Shown in pieces: positions 13,986 through 37,893 of a DNA stretch of 64,000 bases (the stretch's first letter is position 1; every line of letters starts with the position of its first letter). A program made the position numbers and the translations under genes. Source of the stretch: Sphaerotilus microaerophilus (GTDB taxonomy: Bacteria; Pseudomonadota; Gammaproteobacteria; Burkholderiales; Burkholderiaceae_C); the NCBI RefSeq assembly GCF_023734135.1, contig NZ_AP025730.1, positions 3,100,001 through 3,164,000 of the forward strand, in the 5' to 3' direction. The notes under the pieces were generated by a model. The model worked only from the letters and a program-made list of their open reading frames with translations, made no database searches and was not told where the DNA came from.

Positions 13986-16478
<2,493 letters not shown>

Positions 16479-25447: not shown

Positions 25448-27823
25448 TTGGACAAAATCCTTCTACAGATTGCGGCGGAGCTGAAGGTCCGCCCGGCGCA
25501 GGTGAATGCAGCCGTCGAGCTGCTGGACGGTGGGGCCACGGTGCCCTTCATCGCCCGTTACCGCAAGGAAGCCACCGACGGCCTGGACGACACCCAGCTG
25601 CGCGAGCTGGAAGTGCGGCTGGTCTACCTGCGCGAGTTGGAGCAGCGCCGCGGCGCCATCCTCAAGAGCATCGAGGAACAGGGCAAGCTCACGCCCGAGT
25701 TGCGCGCCGCCATCGAAGCTGCGCCTACCAAGCAGGAGCTGGAAGATCTCTACCTCCCCTACAAGGTCAAGCGCCGCACCAAGGGGATGATCGCCCGCGA
25801 GGCCGGCATCGAGCCGCTGGCCGACCGCCTCTTCGCCGACCCGACGCTGGACCCGCGTGCCGAGGCCGCGGCCTTCATCACCGCCTACGAGGGGGGCGCC
25901 GAGGCGCTGGCCACGGCCGGCTTCGCGGATGCGCTGGCGGTGCTGGACGGGGTGCGCGACATCCTCTCCGAGCGCTGGACCGAGGATGCCGCTCTGGTGC
26001 GCACGCTGCGCGAGTGGCTGTGGGACGAAGGCCTGTTCAAGTCCAAGCTGATGGACGGCAAGAACGAGCAGGACGCCGACGTCGCCAAGTTCCGCGACTA
26101 CTTCGACTACGACGAGCCGATCCGCCGCGTGCCCTCGCACCGTGCGCTGGCGGTGTTCCGTGGCCGCACGCTGGACATCCTGGACGCCAAGCTGATGCTC
26201 GACGAGGAGTTGGTACCGGGGCAACCGTCCTTGGCCGAAGGCCGCATCGCCGTCCACCTCGGCTGGAGCCACGCCAAGCGCCCGGGCGACGACCTGATCC
26301 GCCGGACCATCGCCTGGACCTGGAAGGTCAAGCTCAGCCTCAGCCTGGAGCGCGACCTCTTCACCCGCCTGCGTGAGGAGGCCGAGCACGTGGCCATCAA
26401 GGTCTTCGGCGCCAACCTGCGCGACCTGCTGCTGGCCGCGCCGGCGGGCAAGCGCGTGGTGATGGGGCTGGACCCCGGCATCCGCACCGGCGTCAAGGTG
26501 GCCGTGGTCAGCGACACCGGCAAGGTGCTGGACACCGCCACCGTCTACCCGCACGAGCCACGCCGCGACTGGGAAGGGTCCATCCACGTGCTGGGCCGGC
26601 TCTGCGCCACCCACGGCGTGAACCTGATCGCCATCGGCAACGGCACCGCCAGCCGCGAGACCGACAAGCTCGCCGCCGACCTCATCAAGCGCATCCAGCA
26701 GATGGCCCCGGATACGGCCATCGAGAAGGTCGTTGTCAGCGAGGCGGGCGCCTCGGTCTACTCCGCCAGCGAATACGCCAGCAAGGAACTTCCGGATCTG
26801 GACGTTTCATTGCGTGGTGCGGTGTCCATTGCCAGACGTTTGCAGGATCCGCTTGCGGAACTGGTCAAGATCGACCCGAAGAGCATCGGCGTCGGTCAGT
26901 ACCAGCACGACGTCAACCAGGGCGAGCTGGCGCGCACGCTGGTGGCCGTGGTCGAGGACTGCGTCAACTCGGTGGGCGTGGACCTGAACACCGCCTCCGC
27001 GCCGCTGCTGTCGCGCGTCTCGGGCCTGAGCGCCGCGGTGGCCGCCAGCATCGTGCGCTGGCGCGACGCCAACGGCGCCTTCCGCAACCGCCGCCAGCTG
27101 CTGGACGTCGCAGGGCTGGGCCCCAAGACCTTCGAGCAGGCGGCGGGCTTCCTGCGCATCCGCGGCGGCGACAACCCGCTGGACCTGTCGGGCGTGCACC
27201 CCGAAACCTACCCGGTGATCGAGAAGATCATCGCCGCGGTGGGCCGCCCGGTGCAGGACCTGGTGGGCAACGCGGACGTCATCCGCAAGCTCAAGCCCGA
27301 GGCCTTTGCCGACGAGAAGTTCGGCGCGATCACGGTCAAGGACATCCTGGTCGAGCTGGAAAAGCCCGGCCGCGATCCGCGCCCGGACTTCAAGGTGGCG
27401 CGCTTCAACGATGGCGTCGAGGACATCAAGGACCTGCAGGAGGGCATGGTGCTGGAAGGCACGGTGTCCAACGTGGCCCAGTTCGGCGCCTTCGTCGACC
27501 TGGGCGTGCACCAGGACGGCCTGGTGCACGTCAGCCAGCTCTCCAACAAGTTCGTCAACGACGCGCGCGAGGTGGTCAAGACCGGCGACATCGTCAAGGT
27601 GCGCGTGATCGAAGTGGACCTGGCGCGCAAGCGCATCGCGCTGACAATGAAGCTGGACGCACCTGCCCAGCCCAAGGGCGCGGCCAAGGCCGCCGACAAC
27701 AGCTACCGCCCGGCCGGGCGTGGTGAGCGCCATGCGCCGCCGGCCCGCGGTGGCCGCAGCGATGCGTCGGCAGGTGGCGCGATGGCCGCGGCGTTTGCCA
27801 AGCTGCAGCAGGGCCGGCGCTGA
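25448..27823 (+). CDS. tex: Tex family RNA-binding transcription accessory protein
   Basis: Conserved nucleic-acid-binding protein of the Tex/YhgF family (eukaryotic Spt6 homologue), associated with transcription elongation and stress tolerance. About 791 residues: N-terminal helical region ([42 protein letters not shown]), YqgF RNase H-like domain ([17 protein letters not shown]), helix-hairpin-helix ([21 protein letters not shown]) and C-terminal S1 domain (about 640-715, [34 protein letters not shown]) followed by a basic Gly/Arg/Ala-rich tail. I place the start at TTG 25448 because [19 protein letters not shown] is the family N-terminus and GGGAGGG lies upstream; a GTG at 25394 would add 18 residues. 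Confidence 0.93.
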
Positions 27824-27888
27824 GCCCGCACCATGTCGGGCGCCATTGACTGCACCGGGCCGGCGATTTGCGCGATTGATCGATCATG

Positions 27889-27921
27889 CATTGAGCGGGA
27901 ACAAGTTTCACCCGCTCAATG
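27889..27921. promoter_or_regulatory. Perfect 11-bp inverted repeat upstream of phaR
   Basis: CATTGAGCGGG / CCCGCTCAATG with an 11-base AT-richer loop (AACAAGTTTCA), in the 183-bp gap between tex and phaR. No U-tail, so it reads better as an operator or mRNA structure than as a terminator. TAGAAT at 27972-27977 could be the phaR -10. Confidence 0.45.
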
Positions 27922-28006
27922 ACGGGGCTGCTGCGGGTCAACCCCAGCGGGGCGTGGCTGGAGGGCCTGCCTAGAATCCCTTCAACCGTATCCAGGAGAA
28001 ACAAAG

Positions 28007-28597
28007 ATGGCCACGAACCGCCGCACTGCCGAGGACGCCTCGGGCTCGTCGGACGGTCCACGCGTGCTCAAGAAGTACCCGAACCGCCGCCTCTATGACA
28101 CCCAGACCAGCGCCTACATCACGCTGGCCGACGTCAAGCAGATGGTGCTGAACGCCGAGAACTTCGAGGTGCGCGACGCCAAGTCCGGCGAGGACCTCAC
28201 GCGCAGCATCCTGCTGCAGATCATCCTGGAGGAAGAAACCGCCGGCATGCCGATGTTCTCCACCCAGACCCTGGCGCAGATCATCCGCTTCTACGGCCAC
28301 ACCATGCAGGGCCTGATGGGCACCTACCTGGAGAAGAACCTGCAGGCCTTCTTCGACCTGCAGAAGCGCTTTTCCGAGCAGACCGGCGGCCTGTACGAGG
28401 GCAAGGCCTTCAATCCCGAGGCCTGGAGCCAGTTCATGGCCATGCAGACGCCGATGCTGCAGGGCATGATGGGCAACTACATGGACCAGTCCAAGAACCT
28501 CTTCGTGCAGATGCAGGAGCAGATGCAGAAGCAGGCCAGCAGCTTCTTCCCACCCGTGCCGGGCTTCCCGCCGCCGCCTGCGGGCGGGTCGCGCTGA
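28007..28597 (+). CDS. phaR: Polyhydroxyalkanoate synthesis repressor PhaR
   Basis: DNA-binding regulator that senses PHB granules and represses phasin and PHB genes until polymer is present. 196 residues: N-terminal PHB/PHA accumulation regulator DNA-binding domain (about 18-80, VLKKYPNRRLYDTQTSAYITLADVKQMVLNAENFEVRDAKSGEDLTRSILLQII in sequence), two PHB_acc repeats (about 85-165, FSTQTLAQIIRFYGHTMQGLMGTYLEKNL and its relative MQTPMLQGMMGNYMDQSKNLFVQMQEQM) and a Pro-rich tail. AGGAG precedes the ATG at 28007 by about nine bases. The last core gene before the accessory segment; the TIR-WD40 gene starts only 21 bases downstream. Confidence 0.93.
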   Translation: MATNRRTAEDASGSSDGPRVLKKYPNRRLYDTQTSAYITLADVKQMVLNAENFEVRDAKSGEDLTRSILLQIILEEETAGMPMFSTQTLAQIIRFYGHTMQGLMGTYLEKNLQAFFDLQKRFSEQTGGLYEGKAFNPEAWSQFMAMQTPMLQGMMGNYMDQSKNLFVQMQEQMQKQASSFFPPVPGFPPPPAGGSR

Positions 28598-28618
28598 CAC
28601 CCAAGCGGGGCCCCTTCA

Positions 28619-31600
28619 GTGGCCGCCCCCGGCTACGCCGCGCGGCTGTTCGGGTTCGACATGTTCGTCTCCTTCGCGCTGGGCCCTCCGCCGCGCGGGA
28701 CGCAAAGTTACGCCTCGGACCTGGCGCGGCGCATGCGCGAGCGCGACTTCTCGGTGTTCTTCAGCGAAGACGAGGCACCGCCCGGCGAGCAGCTCGACCA
28801 CACCTTGCGGCGCGCCCTGCTGCGCTCGAAGATGCTGGTGGTCGTCGCCAACCGCGCGACCCTCCTGGAGCCCCGCTGGGTGCGCAAGGAGGTGGAGGAG
28901 TTCCGCAACCGTCACCCCGACCGTCCGGTCATCTCCATCAGTGTCGGCGGCGCGCTGCAGGACCCGCAGGTCGGCGCGGTGGTGCAGGACTGGCTGGGCT
29001 TTCGCGACCGGATCTGGCTGGACGAATCCGAACAGGCGGTCGAGTACGGCATCGCCAGCGAAGCGGTGCTGGAGCGCCTCGCCACCGCGCCGGCGCAGCG
29101 CCGATCCAACGTGACCTGGCGCTGGGTGGTGCGCGGCGTGGCGGCGAGCCTGATGGGGCTGACGATCGGGGCCGGGTACGCGGCCTGGCGGGCCAAGCTC
29201 AACGCGGACGAAGCCAACCGCCAGAAGGAGAGTGCCCTCGCCAATCTGGACCGGGCGGTCAAGGGCGAGGCCCTGGCGAAGGCCAATGAAGACCGGGCCC
29301 TGACCGAGGCGGACCGCGCCCTGAAGGCCGAGGGCGCGGCGCTGGCGCAGCAGGCGCGCGCGCAGGAGGAGGCCGCCCGTGCACGCCAGGCGCAGACGCA
29401 GGCGGACATCGAGCGCGAGGCCGCCGTGACGCAGAGCCGCATCGCACTGGCGCGGCAGTTGGCCGCGCAATCGGGTCTCGTGCTGAACCAGAACCCGGAC
29501 CGCCTGGCGTTGGCGGTCCTGCTGGCGCTCGAGTCCCAACGGCTGCGTTCGACCTTCGAGGGCAACCAGGCGCTGCGCGAGGCGCTGGCGCTGCTGCCGC
29601 ACATCGAATGGTCCTCGACGCACCGTGGTGCACCGGGCCGCGGCCGGGTGCGCGCCCTGGCGTTCAGCCCCGATGGCCGGCTCCTTGCGGCCGGACGCGA
29701 AGACGGCAGCGCCGAACTCCTGGACACGCAGGCCCGACGGCAGCGTGCTCTCCTTGCACACGACGCCACGCCGGGTGTGGTGACCCATACCTCCGGCGGC
29801 GGGATCCAGTGGAAGGCGCCCGGTGTGGACGCCGAAGTGACCGCCGTGGCCTTCAGTGCCGACGGAAAGTGGGTGGCGACCGCCAGCCAGGATGGCACGG
29901 CACGCCTCTGGGACAGCGACAGCGGCCACGAGCGCGGCCGCTTCACCCATGGGGCGCCGGTCGGCGGCGTCGCGCTGCACCGGCAACGCCCCTGGCTGGC
30001 CACCGGCGGCAACGATGGCATCGTTCGCCTGTGGAACCTCGCGGACGGCAGCGAGCTGCGGCGATTCAAGGGCCCTGGCGAAGTGCGTGCGGTCGCCTTC
30101 AGCCCCGATGGCCGCTACCTCGGCGCCGCGCACGCGGACGGGTGCACCCGCCTGGTCGAGCTCGACTCGGCCGAGCCGCCGCGGTCCCTGTGTGTGGGCA
30201 GCGCCGGGATGGGGCTGGTCTTCAGCGCCGACAGCCGCCGCGTGGCCACCGCCGGCGGGTCGCATGCGGGGGTCTTCGACGTGGCCACCGGCCAGCGGCT
30301 GTTCCAGGTCACGCACCTGCCGTGGAAGGTGGACGGTTTCCCGGAACACTGGAAGTGGATCGTCCAGGTGGCGCTCAGCCCGGACGGCCGGCTGCTCGCC
30401 ACCGCGGGCCGGGACGGCACGGCGCGTGTATGGGAGATCGGGGAGGTCGGGGAGGTCGGTGAGATGGCGGCGGCAGCGGCGGAGACGGGGGAGGTCGCCG
30501 GCCAGCAGCGCGAGGTCCTGCGCCTGGCGCATGCGGCCGGGGTGGACGAGGTGGCCTTCAGCCCCGACGGCCGGCAACTGGTCACCGCCTCGGTCGATGG
30601 CACGGCCCGCCTCTGGGAACTGGCGTCGGGCCGGGAACAGCTGCGGGCCGTTCACGCCGGCGATTCGGGCGTGGTGGCCTTTCACCCCGACGGCGCACGG
30701 GTGGCCTCCGTCGACGAGAACGGCTCGGTCGGCCTCTGGAACCTGAAGCTGGGCGACCAGCGGCTGCGGCTGCGGCACGACCTCGCGGTCAGGACCATCC
30801 GCTCCGACGCCACCGGCCAACGGCTTGCCACGGTGGACGACCAGGGTACCGTCCGCCTCTGGTCGGCTGACGGCAAGCTGCTGGGCCTGCGCGACCGGTT
30901 GTTCGGCGCCGATCGGTTGGGTTTCAGCCCGGGGGGCCGCTTCCTGGCCCTGCGCGGGCGCAGCCCGCGTGTGGCGCTGCTGGACCTGGGCCGCGATCTC
31001 GCACCGGTGGATCTCGCTGCTGCTGCCGATGCGGAAGACGCCGCGCTGGGTGCACGCCACCTGGCGGCACGGGACCGCCGGCATCGGCGGCTGATGGTCT
31101 GGGACGCCGAGGGCGGGCGCCCCCTGCCAATGCAGGTGGCCGCCGAGAACCTCTCGGAACTGGCTTTCGATGCCACCGGGAGGCACCTCGCCACCGTGCA
31201 CCCCGATACGGCGCGCAAGCAGAACGTGATCCGCGTGTGGGCGCTGCCGGATCGCACGGGGCGCGCAGACCTCACGGATCTCACGGGTCCCACGGAGCGC
31301 GGGCGCATCGCGGCCCCGGCCCGGTCGGGCGTCGATTTTGCGCTCGCCCCCGGCGGCGCGCACCTGGCCCTGGTCGACTGGGAACGGGCCGCGGGCCGCA
31401 CGCGCTGGTTCGTGGACATCTTCGACGTTGCCACGGGGCGCCGTGCGCTGCGCATTGAGGAGGACCGCGCGCCCGCGCTGCTGGGCTTCACGGCCGGCGG
31501 ACGAACCCTGTTCACGCTCGGCGAAGCAGCCGCGGACCAGGCGAGAGAACTCCGGGTGTGGGATGCGGCGAGCGGCCAATTGCTGAGCCGCCTGCGGCAC

Positions 31601-31978
31601 GAGAAGGACATCGACCGGCTGCGCCTCCCGCAGAACGGCGACGAGATCGCCACCCAGTCCGGAGGCAGCCTCCGTGTATGGCACTCGACCACTGGCGAGC
31701 TGCTGGGCCAGGTCACGGGCCGCGCCGGATTCCAGGATTTCGAGTTCAGCCCGGATGGCCAGCACCTGCTGACGGCCGGGCGTGACGGCGAGGCCGCGCT
31801 GTGGCTGTGGCGCAGCACCGACCTGGCCCAGGAGGCCTGCCGGCGCCTGACACGCAACCTGACCCAGGACGAATGGCGGCGCTACCTGGGACCCTCGCCG
31901 CACCGCGCCACCTGCCCGAACCTGCCGCTGGTGGATGCCCCGGGCAGCGGTACAGGGCCTGCAGGTCATCACCGGTAG
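28619..31978 (+). CDS. TIR - transmembrane - coiled coil - WD40 repeat protein
   Basis: Large predicted immune-type receptor, 1119 residues, unrecognised beyond its domains. N-terminal TIR domain (about 10-135: DMFVSFALGP, LARRMRERDFSVFFSEDEAPPGEQL, RSKMLVVVANRATLLEPRWVRKEVEEF with Glu91 at the NADase catalytic position), one transmembrane segment (about 168-188), an Ala/Glu/Gln-rich coiled coil (about 190-290), then WD40 repeats from about residue 343 (FSPDGRLLAAGREDGSAELLD, FSADGKWVATASQDGTARLWD, WLATGGNDGIVRLWN and more) to about 1065, closing with EACRRLTRNLTQDEWRRYL. GTG at 28619 is needed to include the first TIR strand; no strong Shine-Dalgarno, 21 bases after phaR. It converges on the nSTAND gene. 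Known TIR proteins of this type cleave NAD+ on activation; activity here is inferred. Confidence 0.82.
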   Translation: MAAPGYAARLFGFDMFVSFALGPPPRGTQSYASDLARRMRERDFSVFFSEDEAPPGEQLDHTLRRALLRSKMLVVVANRATLLEPRWVRKEVEEFRNRHPDRPVISISVGGALQDPQVGAVVQDWLGFRDRIWLDESEQAVEYGIASEAVLERLATAPAQRRSNVTWRWVVRGVAASLMGLTIGAGYAAWRAKLNADEANRQKESALANLDRAVKGEALAKANEDRALTEADRALKAEGAALAQQARAQEEAARARQAQTQADIEREAAVTQSRIALARQLAAQSGLVLNQNPDRLALAVLLALESQRLRSTFEGNQALREALALLPHIEWSSTHRGAPGRGRVRALAFSPDGRLLAAGREDGSAELLDTQARRQRALLAHDATPGVVTHTSGGGIQWKAPGVDAEVTAVAFSADGKWVATASQDGTARLWDSDSGHERGRFTHGAPVGGVALHRQRPWLATGGNDGIVRLWNLADGSELRRFKGPGEVRAVAFSPDGRYLGAAHADGCTRLVELDSAEPPRSLCVGSAGMGLVFSADSRRVATAGGSHAGVFDVATGQRLFQVTHLPWKVDGFPEHWKWIVQVALSPDGRLLATAGRDGTARVWEIGEVGEVGEMAAAAAETGEVAGQQREVLRLAHAAGVDEVAFSPDGRQLVTASVDGTARLWELASGREQLRAVHAGDSGVVAFHPDGARVASVDENGSVGLWNLKLGDQRLRLRHDLAVRTIRSDATGQRLATVDDQGTVRLWSADGKLLGLRDRLFGADRLGFSPGGRFLALRGRSPRVALLDLGRDLAPVDLAAAADAEDAALGARHLAARDRRHRRLMVWDAEGGRPLPMQVAAENLSELAFDATGRHLATVHPDTARKQNVIRVWALPDRTGRADLTDLTGPTERGRIAAPARSGVDFALAPGGAHLALVDWERAAGRTRWFVDIFDVATGRRALRIEEDRAPALLGFTAGGRTLFTLGEAAADQARELRVWDAASGQLLSRLRHEKDIDRLRLPQNGDEIATQSGGSLRVWHSTTGELLGQVTGRAGFQDFEFSPDGQHLLTAGRDGEAALWLWRSTDLAQEACRRLTRNLTQDEWRRYLGPSPHRATCPNLPLVDAPGSGTGPAGHHR
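30434..30469 (+). repeat. In-frame 9-base repeat inside the TIR-WD40 gene
   Basis: Units GAGATCGGG, GAGGTCGGG, GAGGTCGGT and a decayed GAGATGGCG encode EIGEVGEVGEMA, a loop between WD40 blades. A second set at 31271-31297 (CTCACGGAT, CTCACGGGT, CCCACGGAG) encodes LTDLTGPTE in another inter-blade loop. Both preserve frame. Confidence 0.7.
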
Positions 31979-32071
31979 CGCAGGGGCCGCCCCGTAGCGC
32001 AACCACCCCGACCCGCCGGCCCGCAAGGCCACCCCGCGAGCCAGAGCCGCTACCGGACGCAGGCCCGAGCC
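31957..32071. repeat. Diverged direct repeat, left copy (convergent gene junction)
   Basis: Spans the TIR-WD40 stop, the 71-bp intergenic gap and the nSTAND stop. Four collinear blocks recur in the same orientation at 36773-36882: GCCTGCAGGTCATCA, AGCGCAAC, AAGGCCACCCCGCGAGCCAG and GCAGGCCCGAGCC (14/15, 8/8, 18/20 and 12/13 identical by eye), with different spacing between blocks. Confidence 0.5.
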
Positions 32072-35052
32072 ACCTCGGGCGTGTAGCAGGCCAGCTTGGG
32101 CAGGTAGGTATCCCACTCCGCTGCGCTGAACGGCCGGTCGGCACGCTGGCACAGCGCCTGCACCAGCAGCGCGCTGCGCGTGGTGCCCAGCTTGGCGCCG
32201 CTGGCCGCGCTGTCGGGTGACAGCAGCGCCATCGCCGCCGCCGCGTCGAGCCGGCGCAGCGCCCGCCACAGGGCGTTGTAGACGGCCGGCTGCGCCGCAT
32301 CGTCGGCATCGTGCGGCGTCCAGCGCCAGGCCTTGACGGCCAGCATCGCGGCCAGGTCAGGCGGCTGGCCGGGCCGGGCGGCACCGGCCAGCAGCGGGGC
32401 CACGGCGGCGTCCATCTGGCCAGTGGAACGCAGGTTGTCGGTGCGCAGCTTGCGGATATCGCTGTCCAGTCCGGCGAGCTTCCAGGTCGCGGACGACACC
32501 TCCTGCTGGAGCTTGGACACTTGCTTGCGCAGATCCTCGATCCGAGCCAGCTGGCGTTGGTTGGCTTGCTCCTGATGTGCAATCTCGGCCAGCAGCTCGG
32601 TGCGGCGGCGCTCGGCCTGGGCCACTGCGGCGCGCAGGGCCACCTGGCGCTGCTGCAGGGCGCGCTGCACCGACGCCAGCCGGGCCAGTTCCTGTCGCAG
32701 CAACTCGCGCTGCGTCTCCAGCAGGCGGTTGGCCTGCTGCAGCCAAGCCGCCTCGTCCAGCAGCCGGGCCCGGGCTTCGACCAGCGCCGCCAGCTCGCGG
32801 GCCAGCGCGTCGATGCGGCGGCGCAGCGCGTCGGTGCTCTCGGCGTCGGGCGGGACCACCACGTCCGGGTCAAGGGCCATGACTCGCTTGGCCGGCTCCG
32901 CCCCTAACGCTGCCGCCAAGGGCGGCTCCTCTGGCACTGCCATCACCGGCGCGCAGGTCAGCGTTTCGGCGACCAGTGCCCGCAGCCGCCGCTGCACGAT
33001 CGTCAGCGCCTCGACCTGGCTGATCAGCACCTTGGCCTGCACCGCCAGCGTCGCCGGCACGCTGTCCAGTTGCATCTGGCCCCACCGCAGGTGATCGGCC
33101 TCGGCGTCTAGGTGCCGGCCGGTGGCCACCAGCGCGTCGCGCCGGGTCTCCAGCAGGCCGTACTCCAGCTTGAAGCGCGACAGCTCGACATCGAGCCCGC
33201 GGTTGGTCTCGCGCAGCCGGGCCACGTCGGCCTCCAGCGGGGCACGGCGGGCGTCCAGCGTCGCCACCTCGGCCTTCAGGCGTTCGTGCATGGCACGCAG
33301 GTCCTGCACCGCAGCCAGCTGAACCGCCTGGGCCGCCTCCGCGCTGGCACGTGCCTCGCCCAGCCGCGCCACCTCGGCCTGCAGGATGCGGTTCTGCTCG
33401 CCACGGGCCTCGGCCAATTCGGCCTGCTGGCGGGCCAGTGCCTGCTGCTGGCGCGCGTCGATCACCAGCCAGGCGATGGCCGCACCCACCAGCGCCAGGC
33501 CGCCCAACGCCGCCGCCGTGCGCCGCAGCAGGTGGGCCCGGCGGCTGCGCTGCAGGAAGGCCATGGCGCGGTCGAACTCCTCCGGTGGGTCGCCCGACCA
33601 GGCAGCGGTGGGCGCTGTGTCCTGGCGCCAGCGCCAGCCCAGCGTCAGCTCGGGTGGCCGCCACAGCCCGGCCTCGCCGGCGGCATGCTGGCGCGCGCTG
33701 CGCTGCAGCCGGCGATAGACCTCGGTGGCGCGGGCCTCCTGCTGCACCCAGCCGACCAGGCGCTGCCACAGCCGCATCAGGCTCTCGTGCGCGATGTCCA
33801 CCACGTCGTCGTCGCGCAGCGCCACGCCAGCAGCCGGCTGCAGAAAGGCCCGGCCCGGGGCGCGGAAGACGTCAATCACGCGGGCCAGCTCCTCCGGCTG
33901 CGCCGCGCAGGCCTGCCGCAGCACGCCGAAGGCGGTGGGCCGGCGCAGGCCCAGGCCGTCGTCGTTGGTGACGGTGAGCGCCTTGAACAGCCGCTCGGCA
34001 ATGCCCTGCTCGCGCGGCCCGGCCAGCTCCTTCCAGGCCAGGTCGGCATGATCGGAGAGCGCGTCGCGCAGCGTGCCGATCTTCTGGTAGTGGCGCAGGT
34101 CCAGCGGCTCGCCGGCGGCATGGTCGGCCGCCCAGGCGTCCCAGGTGCGCATCAGCGCGTGCTGCAGCACCGGCAGCTGGTCGCTGCCCGCATTGGCCTC
34201 GGCGAGCTCGCCCACCTCGTTGAGCAGGCGCACCAGCAACCGCGGTGCCACGCCCACGCCGCGCACCGCTGCCGGGCCGGTGATGGCCGCGCGCAGTGCG
34301 TCGCGCGACAGCGCCGGCACCAGGTACTGGCCGGCGTTGATCGCCTCGGGCAGGCCCTGGAAGGCCATGCACTCGCCGATGAACTCCGAGCGCATCGTCA
34401 GCACCACGTAGATCGGCGTGACCCCGGCGCCCGCTGCGCGGGGCCCGTCGGGCGTGCGCGCGGCCTCGAGCAGCAGCTTGACGAAGGCGGTGGCCTCGTC
34501 GTCGGTCTGCGGCCCATGAACGTGGCGGTGTCGGTGGCTGTCGCGGTGGCGATGGCGATGGCGGAAGCGGAACAGCTCCTCGAACTGGTCCACCACCAGC
34601 ACCAGGTTGTCACCCGGCGGCAGCGCCGCCTGGTGCACCGCGGCGGCCAGGCCCAGGCTGCTGTCGCGCAACGCCACCTCCAGCGGCAGGCGCGGCGCGG
34701 TTGCGTCAGGGGCGGCAGGCGTGTCAGGACTGGCATCGCCCAGCACGCCGGGCCTGGCCAGCGCGGCGGCCAGGTGGCCGATCGGGTCCTGGCCGGGGCC
34801 GAAGATCGCCACCCGCCAGCGGCTGCCCGCGCCCGACATGAAGCCGGCGTGCAGCGATGGCACCAGCCCACAGCGCACCAGCGAGCTCTTGCCGCTGCCC
34901 GAGGCGCCCACCACCGCCAGCAGCCGCGTCTGGCGCAGGCGCCGGCGCAGCTCGTCGGTCTCGCGCTCGCGGCCGAAGAAGCAGCTGCTGTCGTCGGGCT
35001 CGAAGGCGCGCAGCCCCGGGTAGGGGTTGGCCGGGGCGGGGTCGGCGGTCAC
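32050..35052 (-). CDS. nSTAND1-type NTPase with transmembrane segment and coiled coils
   Basis: STAND NTPase, likely the sensor and switch of a conflict system, 1000 residues. N-terminus NPYPGLRAFEPDDSSCFFGRERETDELRRRL is the nSTAND1 entry motif; Walker A GASGSGKSS (Lys55), Walker B LVLVVDQFEELF (Asp155), and the downstream helical/winged-helix region ending with DIAHESLMRLWQRL. One transmembrane segment (about 505-528) is followed by two long coiled-coil blocks (about 530-620 and 735-900) and a short C-terminal domain ending CQRADRPFSAAEWDTYLPKLACYTPEVARAC. There is no WD40 or TPR sensor. A His/Arg tract (FRHRHRHRDSHRHRHVH) is inserted just after Walker B. The GTG start overlaps the stop of the TIR gene by four bases (GTGA), so the two are translationally coupled. 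Confidence 0.82.
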   Translation of the reverse strand: MTADPAPANPYPGLRAFEPDDSSCFFGRERETDELRRRLRQTRLLAVVGASGSGKSSLVRCGLVPSLHAGFMSGAGSRWRVAIFGPGQDPIGHLAAALARPGVLGDASPDTPAAPDATAPRLPLEVALRDSSLGLAAAVHQAALPPGDNLVLVVDQFEELFRFRHRHRHRDSHRHRHVHGPQTDDEATAFVKLLLEAARTPDGPRAAGAGVTPIYVVLTMRSEFIGECMAFQGLPEAINAGQYLVPALSRDALRAAITGPAAVRGVGVAPRLLVRLLNEVGELAEANAGSDQLPVLQHALMRTWDAWAADHAAGEPLDLRHYQKIGTLRDALSDHADLAWKELAGPREQGIAERLFKALTVTNDDGLGLRRPTAFGVLRQACAAQPEELARVIDVFRAPGRAFLQPAAGVALRDDDVVDIAHESLMRLWQRLVGWVQQEARATEVYRRLQRSARQHAAGEAGLWRPPELTLGWRWRQDTAPTAAWSGDPPEEFDRAMAFLQRSRRAHLLRRTAAALGGLALVGAAIAWLVIDARQQQALARQQAELAEARGEQNRILQAEVARLGEARASAEAAQAVQLAAVQDLRAMHERLKAEVATLDARRAPLEADVARLRETNRGLDVELSRFKLEYGLLETRRDALVATGRHLDAEADHLRWGQMQLDSVPATLAVQAKVLISQVEALTIVQRRLRALVAETLTCAPVMAVPEEPPLAAALGAEPAKRVMALDPDVVVPPDAESTDALRRRIDALARELAALVEARARLLDEAAWLQQANRLLETQRELLRQELARLASVQRALQQRQVALRAAVAQAERRRTELLAEIAHQEQANQRQLARIEDLRKQVSKLQQEVSSATWKLAGLDSDIRKLRTDNLRSTGQMDAAVAPLLAGAARPGQPPDLAAMLAVKAWRWTPHDADDAAQPAVYNALWRALRRLDAAAAMALLSPDSAASGAKLGTTRSALLVQALCQRADRPFSAAEWDTYLPKLACYTPEVARACVR

Positions 35053-36566
35053 TGCGGCCCCTGCAGCGCGGTGACGAAGGCCTGCAGCGCGGCGGGCGCG
35101 AAGCCGTCGGGCATCGCGATCAGCGGCGCCTCGCGGGTCAGCAGCCGCTGCTTGGCCGGCGTGGCGGGTGGTGCGATGCAGATGCCCGAGGCCCGCAGCG
35201 GCGCGTGCCGCCCGAGGGCGGGCAGCCGCCGCAGCTCGGCCAGCTTCTGCCGCAGCCAGAGCTCGCCGCCGGCACCGTAGTACAGCAGCAGGCCGTCGCA
35301 GTCGCGCAGCTCGGTGTCGTTGAGTTCGCGCAGCTGCGACTCGTCGCCCTCGAACAGCGGCAGCACCACCTCGAAGCCCAGGCCGAACAGGTGCTCCTGC
35401 AGTGGCTGCACCGCAGCCTCGTCGTCGGCGCTGCAGACCAGGTAGATGCGCGTGGGCTGGCCGCCTGCGGCCTGTGCCGTCAGGGCGGTGGCCTGGGCGG
35501 CCCTGGCGGCCAGGGCATCCTGCGCTGCCTGCATCCGGCGCACGACCTCGGTCTTCAGGGCTTCGAAGGAGGTCTTCAGCAGGTCGGAGCCTGGGGCCGG
35601 GATCGGGTCGTCGCGCAGCGCATCGAGCAGCGCGCGCTGGCGCGCCTCGGCCGAGTCAGCATCCGGAGCCAGCCACAGCAGCCGGGCCAGGCCCTGGCCG
35701 TGGTTATGGTCATTTGCCCTGGCGCTGCTGCGGGCCTGCTCGGCGGCGATACGGGCCTGCAGCGCCTGCATCGATTCGTCGCTGCCCTCGGGCACCAGGC
35801 CCGCGGTGGCGCCCAGCAGGTGCACCGAGAGCAGCACCTGGGCCATCTGCGCGCGCACCAGCGCCTCGGCCTCGGCGGCCACCAGCGGCAGCTCCACCGT
35901 AGGCAGCACCCGCCAGCCCTGGCGCAGCAGCTCACGCCGCAGCGCGTCGTGCGGCTCGCGCAGGTCGGACGTGACGGTGGCCAGGTAGGCCGCGGGTGGT
36001 GGGGTGCCGGCGTCGGGTTGTTCCAGCTGCTTCAGCAGGTCGGCGATGTCGTAGGCCAGGTCGTTCAGCCGCACCCAGAAGTCGCGTTCGGCCTCGGCAC
36101 CGTAGACCTTGTTGAACTCCAGCGGACGCCCATTGCCCGGCTGCAGCCGGTAGAACTCGTAGCCCAGCAGCGGCTGCACCAGCGCCGGCACGCGCTGGGA
36201 ATCGACCGGCGTCTTGACGACCTTGAACACCCGCGCCTTGTGGCCCTGCACCGCGCCGCCGGACTGTGCCGCGGCCTGCCAGAAGCCGGTGAGCTCGCGC
36301 TGGCACCAGTCCGACGCGAGGTAGCGCGGCGTGAACACCGACACCAGTGCCGCCGCATGCTGGTAACGCGCGGCCAGTTCATCGCCGAACACATCGTTGC
36401 CCTGCAGCTTGGGGTCGCGCCAGATGCGCGGCGGCTTGCCCATCACCTCGCCCAGGCGCTTGCCCAGCGCGTCGGCGAAGCTGGAGATCCAACCCTCGCT
36501 GCCAGCCGTCAGCGCCTGGTTGTCCAGGTGGGCGTAGCTGATGAAAACGTCATCGCTGAATGCCAT
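35049..36566 (-). CDS. TIR domain protein with DUF4062-like and C-terminal TIR-like domains
   Basis: Predicted effector encoded upstream of and overlapping the nSTAND NTPase, 505 residues, soluble. N-terminal TIR (about 1-140: DDVFISYAHLDNQ, FADALGKRLGEVMG, AAALVSVFTPRYLASDWCQREL with Glu91 at the catalytic position). A middle segment (about 195-300) opens with AAYLATVTSDLREPHDALRREL and resembles the DUF4062 start seen in STAND-associated proteins. The C-terminal part (about 355-480: RIYLVCSADDEAAVQPLQEHLFGLGFEVVLPL in sequence, CDGLLLYYGAGGELWLRQKL) looks like a second TIR-like fold without an obvious catalytic Glu. I infer that the NTPase activates the first TIR to consume NAD+; no such activity is shown. 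First gene of a two-gene operon. Confidence 0.82.
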   Translation of the reverse strand: MAFSDDVFISYAHLDNQALTAGSEGWISSFADALGKRLGEVMGKPPRIWRDPKLQGNDVFGDELAARYQHAAALVSVFTPRYLASDWCQRELTGFWQAAAQSGGAVQGHKARVFKVVKTPVDSQRVPALVQPLLGYEFYRLQPGNGRPLEFNKVYGAEAERDFWVRLNDLAYDIADLLKQLEQPDAGTPPPAAYLATVTSDLREPHDALRRELLRQGWRVLPTVELPLVAAEAEALVRAQMAQVLLSVHLLGATAGLVPEGSDESMQALQARIAAEQARSSARANDHNHGQGLARLLWLAPDADSAEARQRALLDALRDDPIPAPGSDLLKTSFEALKTEVVRRMQAAQDALAARAAQATALTAQAAGGQPTRIYLVCSADDEAAVQPLQEHLFGLGFEVVLPLFEGDESQLRELNDTELRDCDGLLLYYGAGGELWLRQKLAELRRLPALGRHAPLRASGICIAPPATPAKQRLLTREAPLIAMPDGFAPAALQAFVTALQGPQ

Positions 36567-36772
36567 GGCCCGGCGCGCTCCAAGGGTGCGATGGGGACAG
36601 TATCACGCAACACGCGCGCTTGGTGGCCGGGCGCAGGCGTTCAGCGAAAGCTCCCGCCACCAGCAGGAAGCAGGTCGCGTTGAGTGCAGCCGTGCTCCCC
36701 CCTGACGGCGCGGCGTACCCGCCCCACCAACGGCTTCGGCAGCGCAGCGGCCACCGCCCGCCAGAGGCCCGT

Positions 36773-36882
36773 GCCTGCAGCTCATCAGGCCGGCCCGACG
36801 CCGCATCAAGCCCGGTCCACAGCGCAACAAAGCCACCCCGCAAGCCAGCTGGCAGCACCCCGCCTGATTGCAGGCCCGCGCC
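36773..36882. repeat. Diverged direct repeat, right copy
   Basis: Copy of the element at 31957-32071 in the same orientation, lying upstream of the TIR gene. On the minus strand it still encodes ...WARACNQAG..., which lines up with the last residues VARACVR of the nSTAND protein, so it may be a scar of a former gene end. The pair brackets the TIR-nSTAND operon. Confidence 0.45.
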
Positions 36883-36963
36883 CACACGCTGCAGGCAGCG
36901 GTGCTCGGCTGTCTGTTGTTGAGGAGCGGGCTTCGACACACATTCCCTGCGACGAGCACCTGC

Positions 36964-37029
36964 TCGCAGGCGCATGTCTTCGCTCTTGCGTTGACGCAGC
37001 GGCGAGACCGCCGGGGTGGTCGTGTCCAT
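36964..37029 (-). pseudogene. N-terminal remnant of a tyrosine recombinase/integrase
   Basis: An ATG at 37029 opens TPAVSPLRQRKSEDMRLR, which matches the N-terminus of a family of tyrosine-type (integron/IS91-associated) recombinases that begin TPAVSPLRQRMIEDMxxR; after about 22 residues the similarity ends in unrelated sequence. Nothing of the catalytic domain remains. It lies 185 bp from the tRNA-Pro 3' end. In the whole 647-bp stretch 36567-37213 I see only this remnant, the diverged repeat and the tRNA terminator; no intact gene. Confidence 0.5.
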
Positions 37030-37171
37030 GGTTGCAGCTCCGTTGATCAACGAGGCGGATTGCCTCGCTCGTCAACTTCGCAGAACCAGGGCGCCATGGG
37101 TCGCCGCAACCTCCCCGGAGCGCCTACCGCGCGAGCGGTTTAGTCCTCAGCCCCATCGTCGGCCACAAAGC

Positions 37172-37202
37172 AAAAAGCCCGGTGTCTTGTGAACACCGGG
37201 CA
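37172..37202 (-). terminator. Rho-independent terminator of tRNA-Pro
   Basis: Stem GCCCGGTGT/ACACCGGGC with a 7-base loop, followed on the minus strand by TTTTTG. Located 12 bases after the tRNA-Pro CCA. Confidence 0.85.
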
Positions 37203-37213
37203 TTGCCGTTCTT

Positions 37214-37291
<78 letters not shown>

Positions 37292-37302
37292 CTGAGCCTT
37301 GC

Positions 37303-37332
37303 ATTATAGGGGCGGGAAAATAGTCGTGTCCA
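37303..37332 (-). promoter_or_regulatory. Sigma-70 promoter of tRNA-Pro
   Basis: Minus strand TGGACA (37327-37332), 18-base spacer, TATAAT (37303-37308, perfect). The predicted start is about 6 bases before the tRNA. It lies between the merR stop and the tRNA. Confidence 0.75.
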
Positions 37333-37356
37333 GCAAATTGATGTGTTCCTGCAACA

Positions 37357-37893
37357 TCAGAACCCGGCGTCCAGCAGGGCGCGGATGGAAAGCAGTTCGT
37401 CTCGCAGACTGCGCGCGGGCGCAACGCTCAGAACCGCATCCACGGGGCGTTGTTGCAGCGCGGCGGTGGATGTGGCAACAGCCGCGCTGCCGCGCATTTC
37501 GGGCACCTGATCGATGGCGAGGATCGACACGGTCGGTACCGGGAGGTCCATGCTCCGATCCGGCTCGAGGTCGAACTCGGCGTTGCCCAGTCCCGGTGCC
37601 TGGTCGGTCCAGTCGTCCCCGTCGAGTGCGCTGGCGGGCCCCAGTTCCGTCAGACGATTGCGCGCGCCGCTGATCGTGAAGCCCTGCTCGTAGAGCAGGT
37701 CGCGGATGCGGCGGATCAGCAACACCTCGTGGTGCTGATAGTACCGGCGGTTGCCGCGCCGCTTCATGGGGCGCAGTTGTGTGAACTCCTGCTCCCAGTA
37801 CCTGAGCACGTAGGGCTTGACGCCGCACAGTTCGCTGACTTCACCGATCGTGAAGTAGCGCTTGGGCGGGATGGCCGGGAGGGAGTTTTCCAT
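37357..37893 (-). CDS. MerR family transcriptional regulator
   Basis: DNA-binding protein of 178 residues. N-terminal MerR helix-turn-helix and wing: RYFTIGEVSELCGVKPYVLRYWEQEF, then LRPMKRRGNRRYYQHHEVLLIRRIRDLLYEQGFTISGARNRL (about 12-82). The C-terminal half is acidic and low in conserved features, with no Cys cluster for metals. It follows ihfA by 35 bp as the last gene of the thrS-to-ihfA cluster, a conserved neighbourhood in Burkholderiales. The ligand and targets are unknown. Confidence 0.88.
   Translation of the reverse strand: MENSLPAIPPKRYFTIGEVSELCGVKPYVLRYWEQEFTQLRPMKRRGNRRYYQHHEVLLIRRIRDLLYEQGFTISGARNRLTELGPASALDGDDWTDQAPGLGNAEFDLEPDRSMDLPVPTVSILAIDQVPEMRGSAAVATSTAALQQRPVDAVLSVAPARSLRDELLSIRALLDAGF

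Follow-up and report, generated by a model that had tools for sequence, protein, structure and literature searches.

The chromosome of Sphaerotilus microaerophilus carries three adjacent genes: one for a protein of several TIR-type domains, one for an nSTAND1 nucleoside triphosphatase (NTPase), and one for a protein (TIR-WD40 hereafter) in which a TIR domain is joined to WD40 repeats. Do these genes form a single defence locus, and if not, what is the conserved unit? They lie in a window of 64,000 nucleotides (positions 3,100,001 to 3,164,000 of contig NZ_AP025730.1, which is 6,027,181 bases long). The original prediction, made from the sequence of this window alone, read them as one three-gene locus containing two TIR effectors, the first under the control of the NTPase and the second membrane-anchored and equipped with its own WD40 sensor. 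All three open reading frames (ORFs) are present where they had been placed (Table 1). As judged from relatives in other genomes, however, the conserved unit is two genes – TIR and nSTAND1 – and this pair is a real, conserved system, a new variant among STAND/TIR conflict systems.

Conservation and distribution of the gene pair

A profile of the family to which the 505-amino-acid (aa) TIR protein belongs recovered 208 relatives from a genome collection; the locus counts below refer to the best 80 of these. An nSTAND1 gene stands directly downstream, on the same strand, in 78 of the 80, and the loci span nine phyla by our own assignment (Acidobacteriota, Bacteroidota, Verrucomicrobiota, Pseudomonadota, Cyanobacteriota, Fibrobacterota, Chloroflexota, Desulfobacterota and Nitrospirota). 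The distance from the TIR stop to the start of the NTPase match has a median of 21 bases over 79 loci: this set includes one locus (L004) added from an earlier search, and at four loci the hidden Markov model segment was wrongly picked, the genes there starting normally. In the window a direct check shows the GTG start of nSTAND1 overlapping the TIR stop by 4 bp, the GTGA arrangement noticed in the original prediction. Identity matrices for TIR and NTPase are correlated over 74 loci, window included (r = 0.88; the maximum in 1000 permutations was 0.139). With these figures, and with the conservation of the catalytic-type glutamate described below, the prediction of a TIR/nSTAND1 operon stands: the pair is a co-inherited unit.

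At two loci of Chitinophagales type (L062:8037-10001 and L070:8031-9989) the TIR protein occurs without nSTAND1, and a gene for a TrkA_N membrane protein lies just upstream. One candidate fusion of TIR and nSTAND1 (P0041) was not used: its TIR match ends at 403 and its NTPase match is fragmentary, which suggests a frameshift.

Presence of the pair is patchy. Among 200 genomes of the order, the only full-length TIR relative besides the window's own is that of G144 (39% identical, at L004), which has an nSTAND1 gene downstream. Among 398 genomes sampled from the phylum, the TIR protein has a match of any kind in three and the N-terminus of TIR-WD40 in ten, the latter matches all being weak apart from the window's own; a full-length match to either query is found only in the window's own genome. 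Carriage by mobile elements was considered and rejected: the TIR protein has no match in 72,556 plasmid records, and neither the TIR family nor the TIR domain of TIR-WD40 has a relative in viral contigs. The N-terminal query from TIR-WD40 matched four cyanobacterial plasmids, over residues 267-326 only, in caspase-family proteins.

A protein of three TIR-type folds

Comparison of its model with known folds divides the 505-aa protein (Pfam TIR_2, 1.9e-8) into three domains of TIR/NDT fold. Domain 1 resembles plant TIRs in both fold and alignment; its Glu91, at the catalytic position, aligns with E100 of RUN1, and the chain of the RUN1 E100A mutant has alanine there. This glutamate is kept in 201 of 202 family sequences (a set that includes the window's protein twice; the remaining sequence has a gap), and the Glu91 of TIR-WD40 in 120 of 120 homologues. 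Because of this conservation the presence of Glu91 in both proteins (WVRKE and WCQRE), correctly noticed in the original prediction, is more than chance. By its glutamate within a TIR fold, domain 1 is classed as a TIR of catalytic type: that is, of the type that degrades nicotinamide adenine dinucleotide (NAD+), or NADase type.

Domain 2 has glutamine (270) at the corresponding motif in 197 of the 202 sequences, and domain 3 has WxxxK in 181. The profile of domain 2 matches KpSwz (E 0.005), and fold and profile comparison together bear out the proposed DUF4062-like middle and TIR-like third domain; Pfam assigns DUF4062 to many relatives and stays below threshold in the window's own protein. 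In canonical DUF4062 proteins of two loci (L144 and L146) S-x-T-E-x-E stands opposite Gln270, as matched by eye from a shared Ser. An equivalent of KpSwz E97 in domain 2 was not alignable, and a canonical DUF4062 query gave no match in the PDB. KpSwz is not among the fold matches listed, and no weight was put on this. A sequence search with domain 3 by itself gave no significant match to a solved structure, while its model does match TIR/NDT folds. In one relative (P0102; also in the partial P0096) the triple-TIR protein is fused behind a Ser/Thr protein kinase domain.

The nSTAND1 protein as a probable membrane receptor

The nSTAND1 assignment (PF20703) is made at 8.8e-91, with 305.8 bits against a gathering score of 27.1, over residues 10-457. 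The Walker A and B motifs claimed for it were confirmed directly: K55 and D155 are invariant in 42 sequences, and NTPase activity is predicted. Behind the NTPase, 52 of 57 pair members and 118 of 120 nSTAND1 homologues have a single predicted transmembrane (TM) helix, and most of them carry more Lys+Arg on its NTPase side (48 of the 52 and 108 of the 118). What follows the helix is exchangeable among pair members – WD40, TPR or coiled coil, with CHASE2, CAP and laminin-G found once each – and sensors are swapped between close relatives. In the coiled-coil type, to which the window's protein belongs, C968 and C998 are invariant in 42 sequences; where the tail motif is present, both flanking cysteines are found in 36 of 36 nSTAND1 homologues, 7 of 7 pair members and 29 of 30 TIR-WD40 homologues. 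Because the helix is conserved and the C-termini are exchanged, the protein is probably a membrane receptor rather than the cytosolic controller that had been proposed, so that both TIR activities would probably be membrane-associated.

The nSTAND1 protein of a cyanobacterial pair member (L093:11539-15111) carries an additional TIR and a CHASE2 domain.

The TIR-WD40 neighbour

In Pfam, TIR-WD40 matches WD40 at 4e-63 and, within its first 330 residues, TIR_2 at 2e-9. The family to which it belongs consists of TIR-TM-WD40 proteins, a part of them with TPR in place of WD40. TM segments had been claimed for both this protein and the NTPase: the latter is predicted as described, whereas in TIR-WD40 itself the segment falls under the hydropathy cut-off, though a single TM is predicted at the corresponding site in 114 of 120 homologues. 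Of these 114, 108 carry the higher net charge on the TIR side. In layout TIR-WD40 is the operon's receptor with a TIR fused on – a putative one-protein receptor. Any match to its N-terminus was found in five of 369 genomes of the class, all weak except the window's own.

Genomic setting

Coordinates are collected in Table 1. To the left of the three genes lie two tRNA-Val genes, tex and phaR, and to the right tRNA-Pro followed by a MerR regulator (tex, phaR and MerR by Pfam); from their translations we take further genes to be of relA/spoT type (left) and ihfA, pheT and pheS (right). The genes flanking the locus in the window are thus housekeeping genes.

Table 1. Genes, domains and residues of the locus, in positions of the window
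Feature	Position	Strand	Basis
TIR effector gene, 505-aa triple-TIR-fold protein	35049..36566	-	ORF, Pfam, fold comparison
Domain 1, catalytic-type TIR, residues 2-181	36024..36563	-	fold comparison, alignment
E91 codon, aligned with RUN1 E100	36294..36296	-	alignment
Domain 2, DUF4062-like, residues 188-346, Gln at 270	35529..36005	-	fold and profile comparison
Domain 3, TIR/NDT fold with WxxxK, residues 369-504	35055..35462	-	fold and profile comparison
nSTAND1 receptor gene (probable), 1000 aa (NTPase, TM, coiled coil, tail)	32050..35052	-	ORF, Pfam, prediction
nSTAND1 NTPase domain, residues 10-457, K55, D155	33682..35025	-	Pfam, alignment, fold
Predicted TM helix, residues 513-531	33460..33516	-	hydropathy
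Predicted coiled coil, residues 553-891, low-confidence stretch ~701-729	32380..33396	-	prediction
C-terminal tail, residues 898-1000, invariant C968 and C998	32053..32361	-	alignment
TIR-TM-coiled coil-WD40 gene, 1119 aa, neighbouring independent gene	28619..31978	+	ORF, Pfam, homologues
TIR-WD40 E91 codon	28889..28891	+	direct check
TIR-WD40 probable TM, ~residues 169-190	29123..29188	+	placed by homologues; sub-cut-off in the window's sequence

A scan of 27800-37400 found no consensus promoter directly 5' of the operon; the sole promoter-like site in that interval precedes tRNA-Pro, and a terminator-like hairpin follows tRNA-Pro (37177-37332). Upstream of the operon, 36750-36973 is a dispersed repeat: over 152 bp it is 89-95% like copies that lie at 3062.8 kb and 3291.9 kb on this chromosome, and weaker copies occur elsewhere.

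At the phaR locus of 11 congeners, out of 12 that have the gene, two conserved ORFs follow phaR, the same in each, and none of the three genes is there; in the window's genome the ORFs that usually adjoin phaR sit at 3282-3284 kb, on the other strand. In the three congeners compared on the tRNA-Pro side, similarity ends at or just past tRNA-Pro. Because the genes are missing at the congeneric phaR loci and similarity ends near tRNA-Pro, the segment of ~28597-37167 is assigned to the window's lineage as specific to it within the genomes compared. A single inversion between inverted operon copies was considered as the cause of the broken phaR synteny and dropped, as the gene order of G200 does not fit.

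Two decayed partial copies of the operon lie ~157 kb away (L008:8562-9069 and 14960-15113; chromosome ~3293.6-3294.1 and 3300.0-3300.1 kb), one of which joins the first 53 TIR codons directly to the last 78 NTPase codons. The same genome encodes, at ~2.249 Mb (L165:3616-6366, minus strand), a one-chain TIR-nSTAND1-FGE protein with effector, switch and sensor in cis.

Proposed mechanism and its alternatives

We tentatively read the pair as a two-gene receptor-effector operon – an outside sensor, a membrane-anchored STAND switch and a TIR NADase in trans – and give this reading nearly an even chance. The nSTAND1 protein would span the inner membrane once, with its NTPase switch in the cytoplasm and its C-terminal sensor outside: a coiled coil with a Cys-pair tail here, and WD40, TPR or others in relatives. 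A ligand outside would lift autoinhibition, upon which the NTPase would swap its nucleotide and oligomerise; the oligomer would bind and cluster the trans-encoded triple-TIR protein, and domain 1 would then cleave NAD+, while domains 2 and 3, putatively degenerate in catalysis, may serve in docking or assembly. The outcome, and with it the presumed immune role, would be depletion of NAD+ or a signal of the adenosine diphosphate (ADP)-ribose type, then arrest or death of the cell. TIR-WD40 would act in the same way within one chain.

Several points weigh against this mechanism. WD40 and TPR are elsewhere more often cytosolic. Five of the 57 pair members have no TM at the hydropathy cut-off used, and the tail motif is missing from 84 of 120 nSTAND1 homologues, 50 of 57 pair members and 90 of 120 TIR-WD40 homologues. 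Lys+Arg alone is a weak signal in the TIR-WD40 homologues: of 114, the TIR side has more in 72, the same number in 27 and fewer in 15. The correlated identities of TIR and NTPase may come from shared species history alone. Lastly, nothing ties the loci to phages: plasmids and viral contigs hold no copy of the TIR protein, and no survey of neighbours for defence genes was made.

If the hydrophobic segment were only an anchor, or lay in the plane of the membrane, the C-terminus would be inside and the same pair might detect phage proteins in the cytosol, as Avs does. This we regard as unlikely, given the single TM with its consistent positive-inside bias, the Cys-pair tail of the coiled-coil type, and the CHASE2, CAP and laminin-G C-termini (single cases each); sensing outside the membrane is plausible. 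It is improbable, too, that the TIR protein, instead of draining NAD+ itself, signals to an unlinked effector through a nucleotide messenger: domain 1 is plant-TIR-like, bacterial and plant TIRs can make messengers (PMC13174449), and the kinase fusion of P0102 and the two loci with a TrkA_N membrane protein are signalling contexts, but the pair showed no further conserved neighbour, in data that include no systematic survey of downstream genes. The pair might also serve housekeeping or envelope-stress signalling and not immunity, as its extracytoplasmic-type sensors, the lack of plasmid or viral-contig copies and the housekeeping genes flanking it in the window would allow; this we likewise consider improbable, in view of its patchy presence (G144 alone of the 200 order genomes, besides the window's own), the exchange of sensors and the decayed copies in the same genome.

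A single three-gene defence locus is very improbable, and as a conserved unit it was rejected. In its favour, all three genes sit between phaR and tRNA-Pro within one lineage-specific segment of ~8.6 kb, and 1.4 kb from a decayed operon copy there are 52 bp with 84.6% similarity to the 3' part of the TIR-WD40 gene; in WD40 DNA, which is repetitive, 52 bp may match by chance or stem from a different WD40 gene. Against it, the N-terminus of TIR-WD40 was found at 0 of the 80 pair loci (flanks are short in many: 36 reach 5 kb or more upstream as well as 7 kb or more downstream), the full-length matches among the 398 phylum genomes are the window's own, and the TIR-WD40 and nSTAND1 genes converge, with 71 bp between their ends, rather than being oriented for co-transcription. 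TIR-WD40 shares the segment with the operon but, by these comparisons, does not usually accompany it at the loci seen.

Relation to known systems

The nSTAND1 clade was named in PMC8195603, and the nSTAND1 conflict systems (PMC8195603, PMC10907252) share with the pair the NTPase, a variable C-terminal sensor and TIR as a linked effector. Here, by contrast, the effector is a separate triple-TIR protein and a TM helix follows the NTPase; excerpts of those papers hold no description of the pair, and it is the TIR-nSTAND1-FGE protein of the window's genome that has their one-chain layout. One STAND sensor is predicted to be periplasmic (PMC10907252). The Swarozyc/DUF4062 NADases (PMC13174449) resemble the effector in domain 2 and in a TIR-like NADase context; KpSwz, however, works by itself and has both a catalytic Glu and an auxiliary domain of its own, whereas in the window's effector Gln stands in the corresponding motif of domain 2 and the catalytic-type Glu in a separate TIR domain. 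A C-terminal auxiliary domain that binds phage portal is part of how Swarozyc is defined. Avs/AVAST proteins are alike in their STAND-type NTPase fold and C-terminal sensor; they are defined by an effector fused to the N-terminus of the NTPase (PMC10907252), which the window's nSTAND1 protein lacks (its NTPase starts at residue 10), and the TM helix behind the NTPase is a further difference. Plant TIR-NLRs and human TEP1/APAF-1 likewise join a TIR or TIR-like enzyme to a STAND switch and a repeat sensor, whereas here the effector is in trans and the receptor is predicted to cross the membrane. The EACC1 system (PMC7159879) also has two genes, membrane association and variable C-terminal domains, but consists of EACC1 and a caspase in place of TIR and nSTAND1; no caspase family is among the Pfam matches listed (25 of 45 for TIR-WD40). 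Against Thoeris families TIR-WD40 scores 19.1 bits to ThcB4, where the cut-off is 220, and none of these families is listed for the 505-aa protein; the score to FxsC TIR-like proteins (NF040588), 41.7 bits, lies under the curated cut-off of 130. Within excerpts of the open-access literature on STAND/TIR/DUF4062 systems no description of the TIR/nSTAND1 pair was found.

Implications

Avs and Swarozyc detect phage products within the cell (PMC10907252, PMC13174449). A wider proposal, which we put forward as possible and short of probable, is that the pair and its neighbour represent widespread bacterial transmembrane immune receptors of Toll-like layout: exchangeable sensors outside, one membrane helix, and inside a STAND switch commanding a triple-TIR NADase in trans (operon) or a fused TIR (neighbour), and sensing attack on the envelope, not phage proteins made inside. 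The triple-TIR effector, with one active-type and two putatively degenerate TIR domains, would make these separable for study. If the proposal is true, bacterial STAND/TIR systems would have an outside-sensing branch, spread over nine phyla and carrying exchangeable outer sensors, and bacteria would possess a counterpart to the layout of Toll-like receptors.

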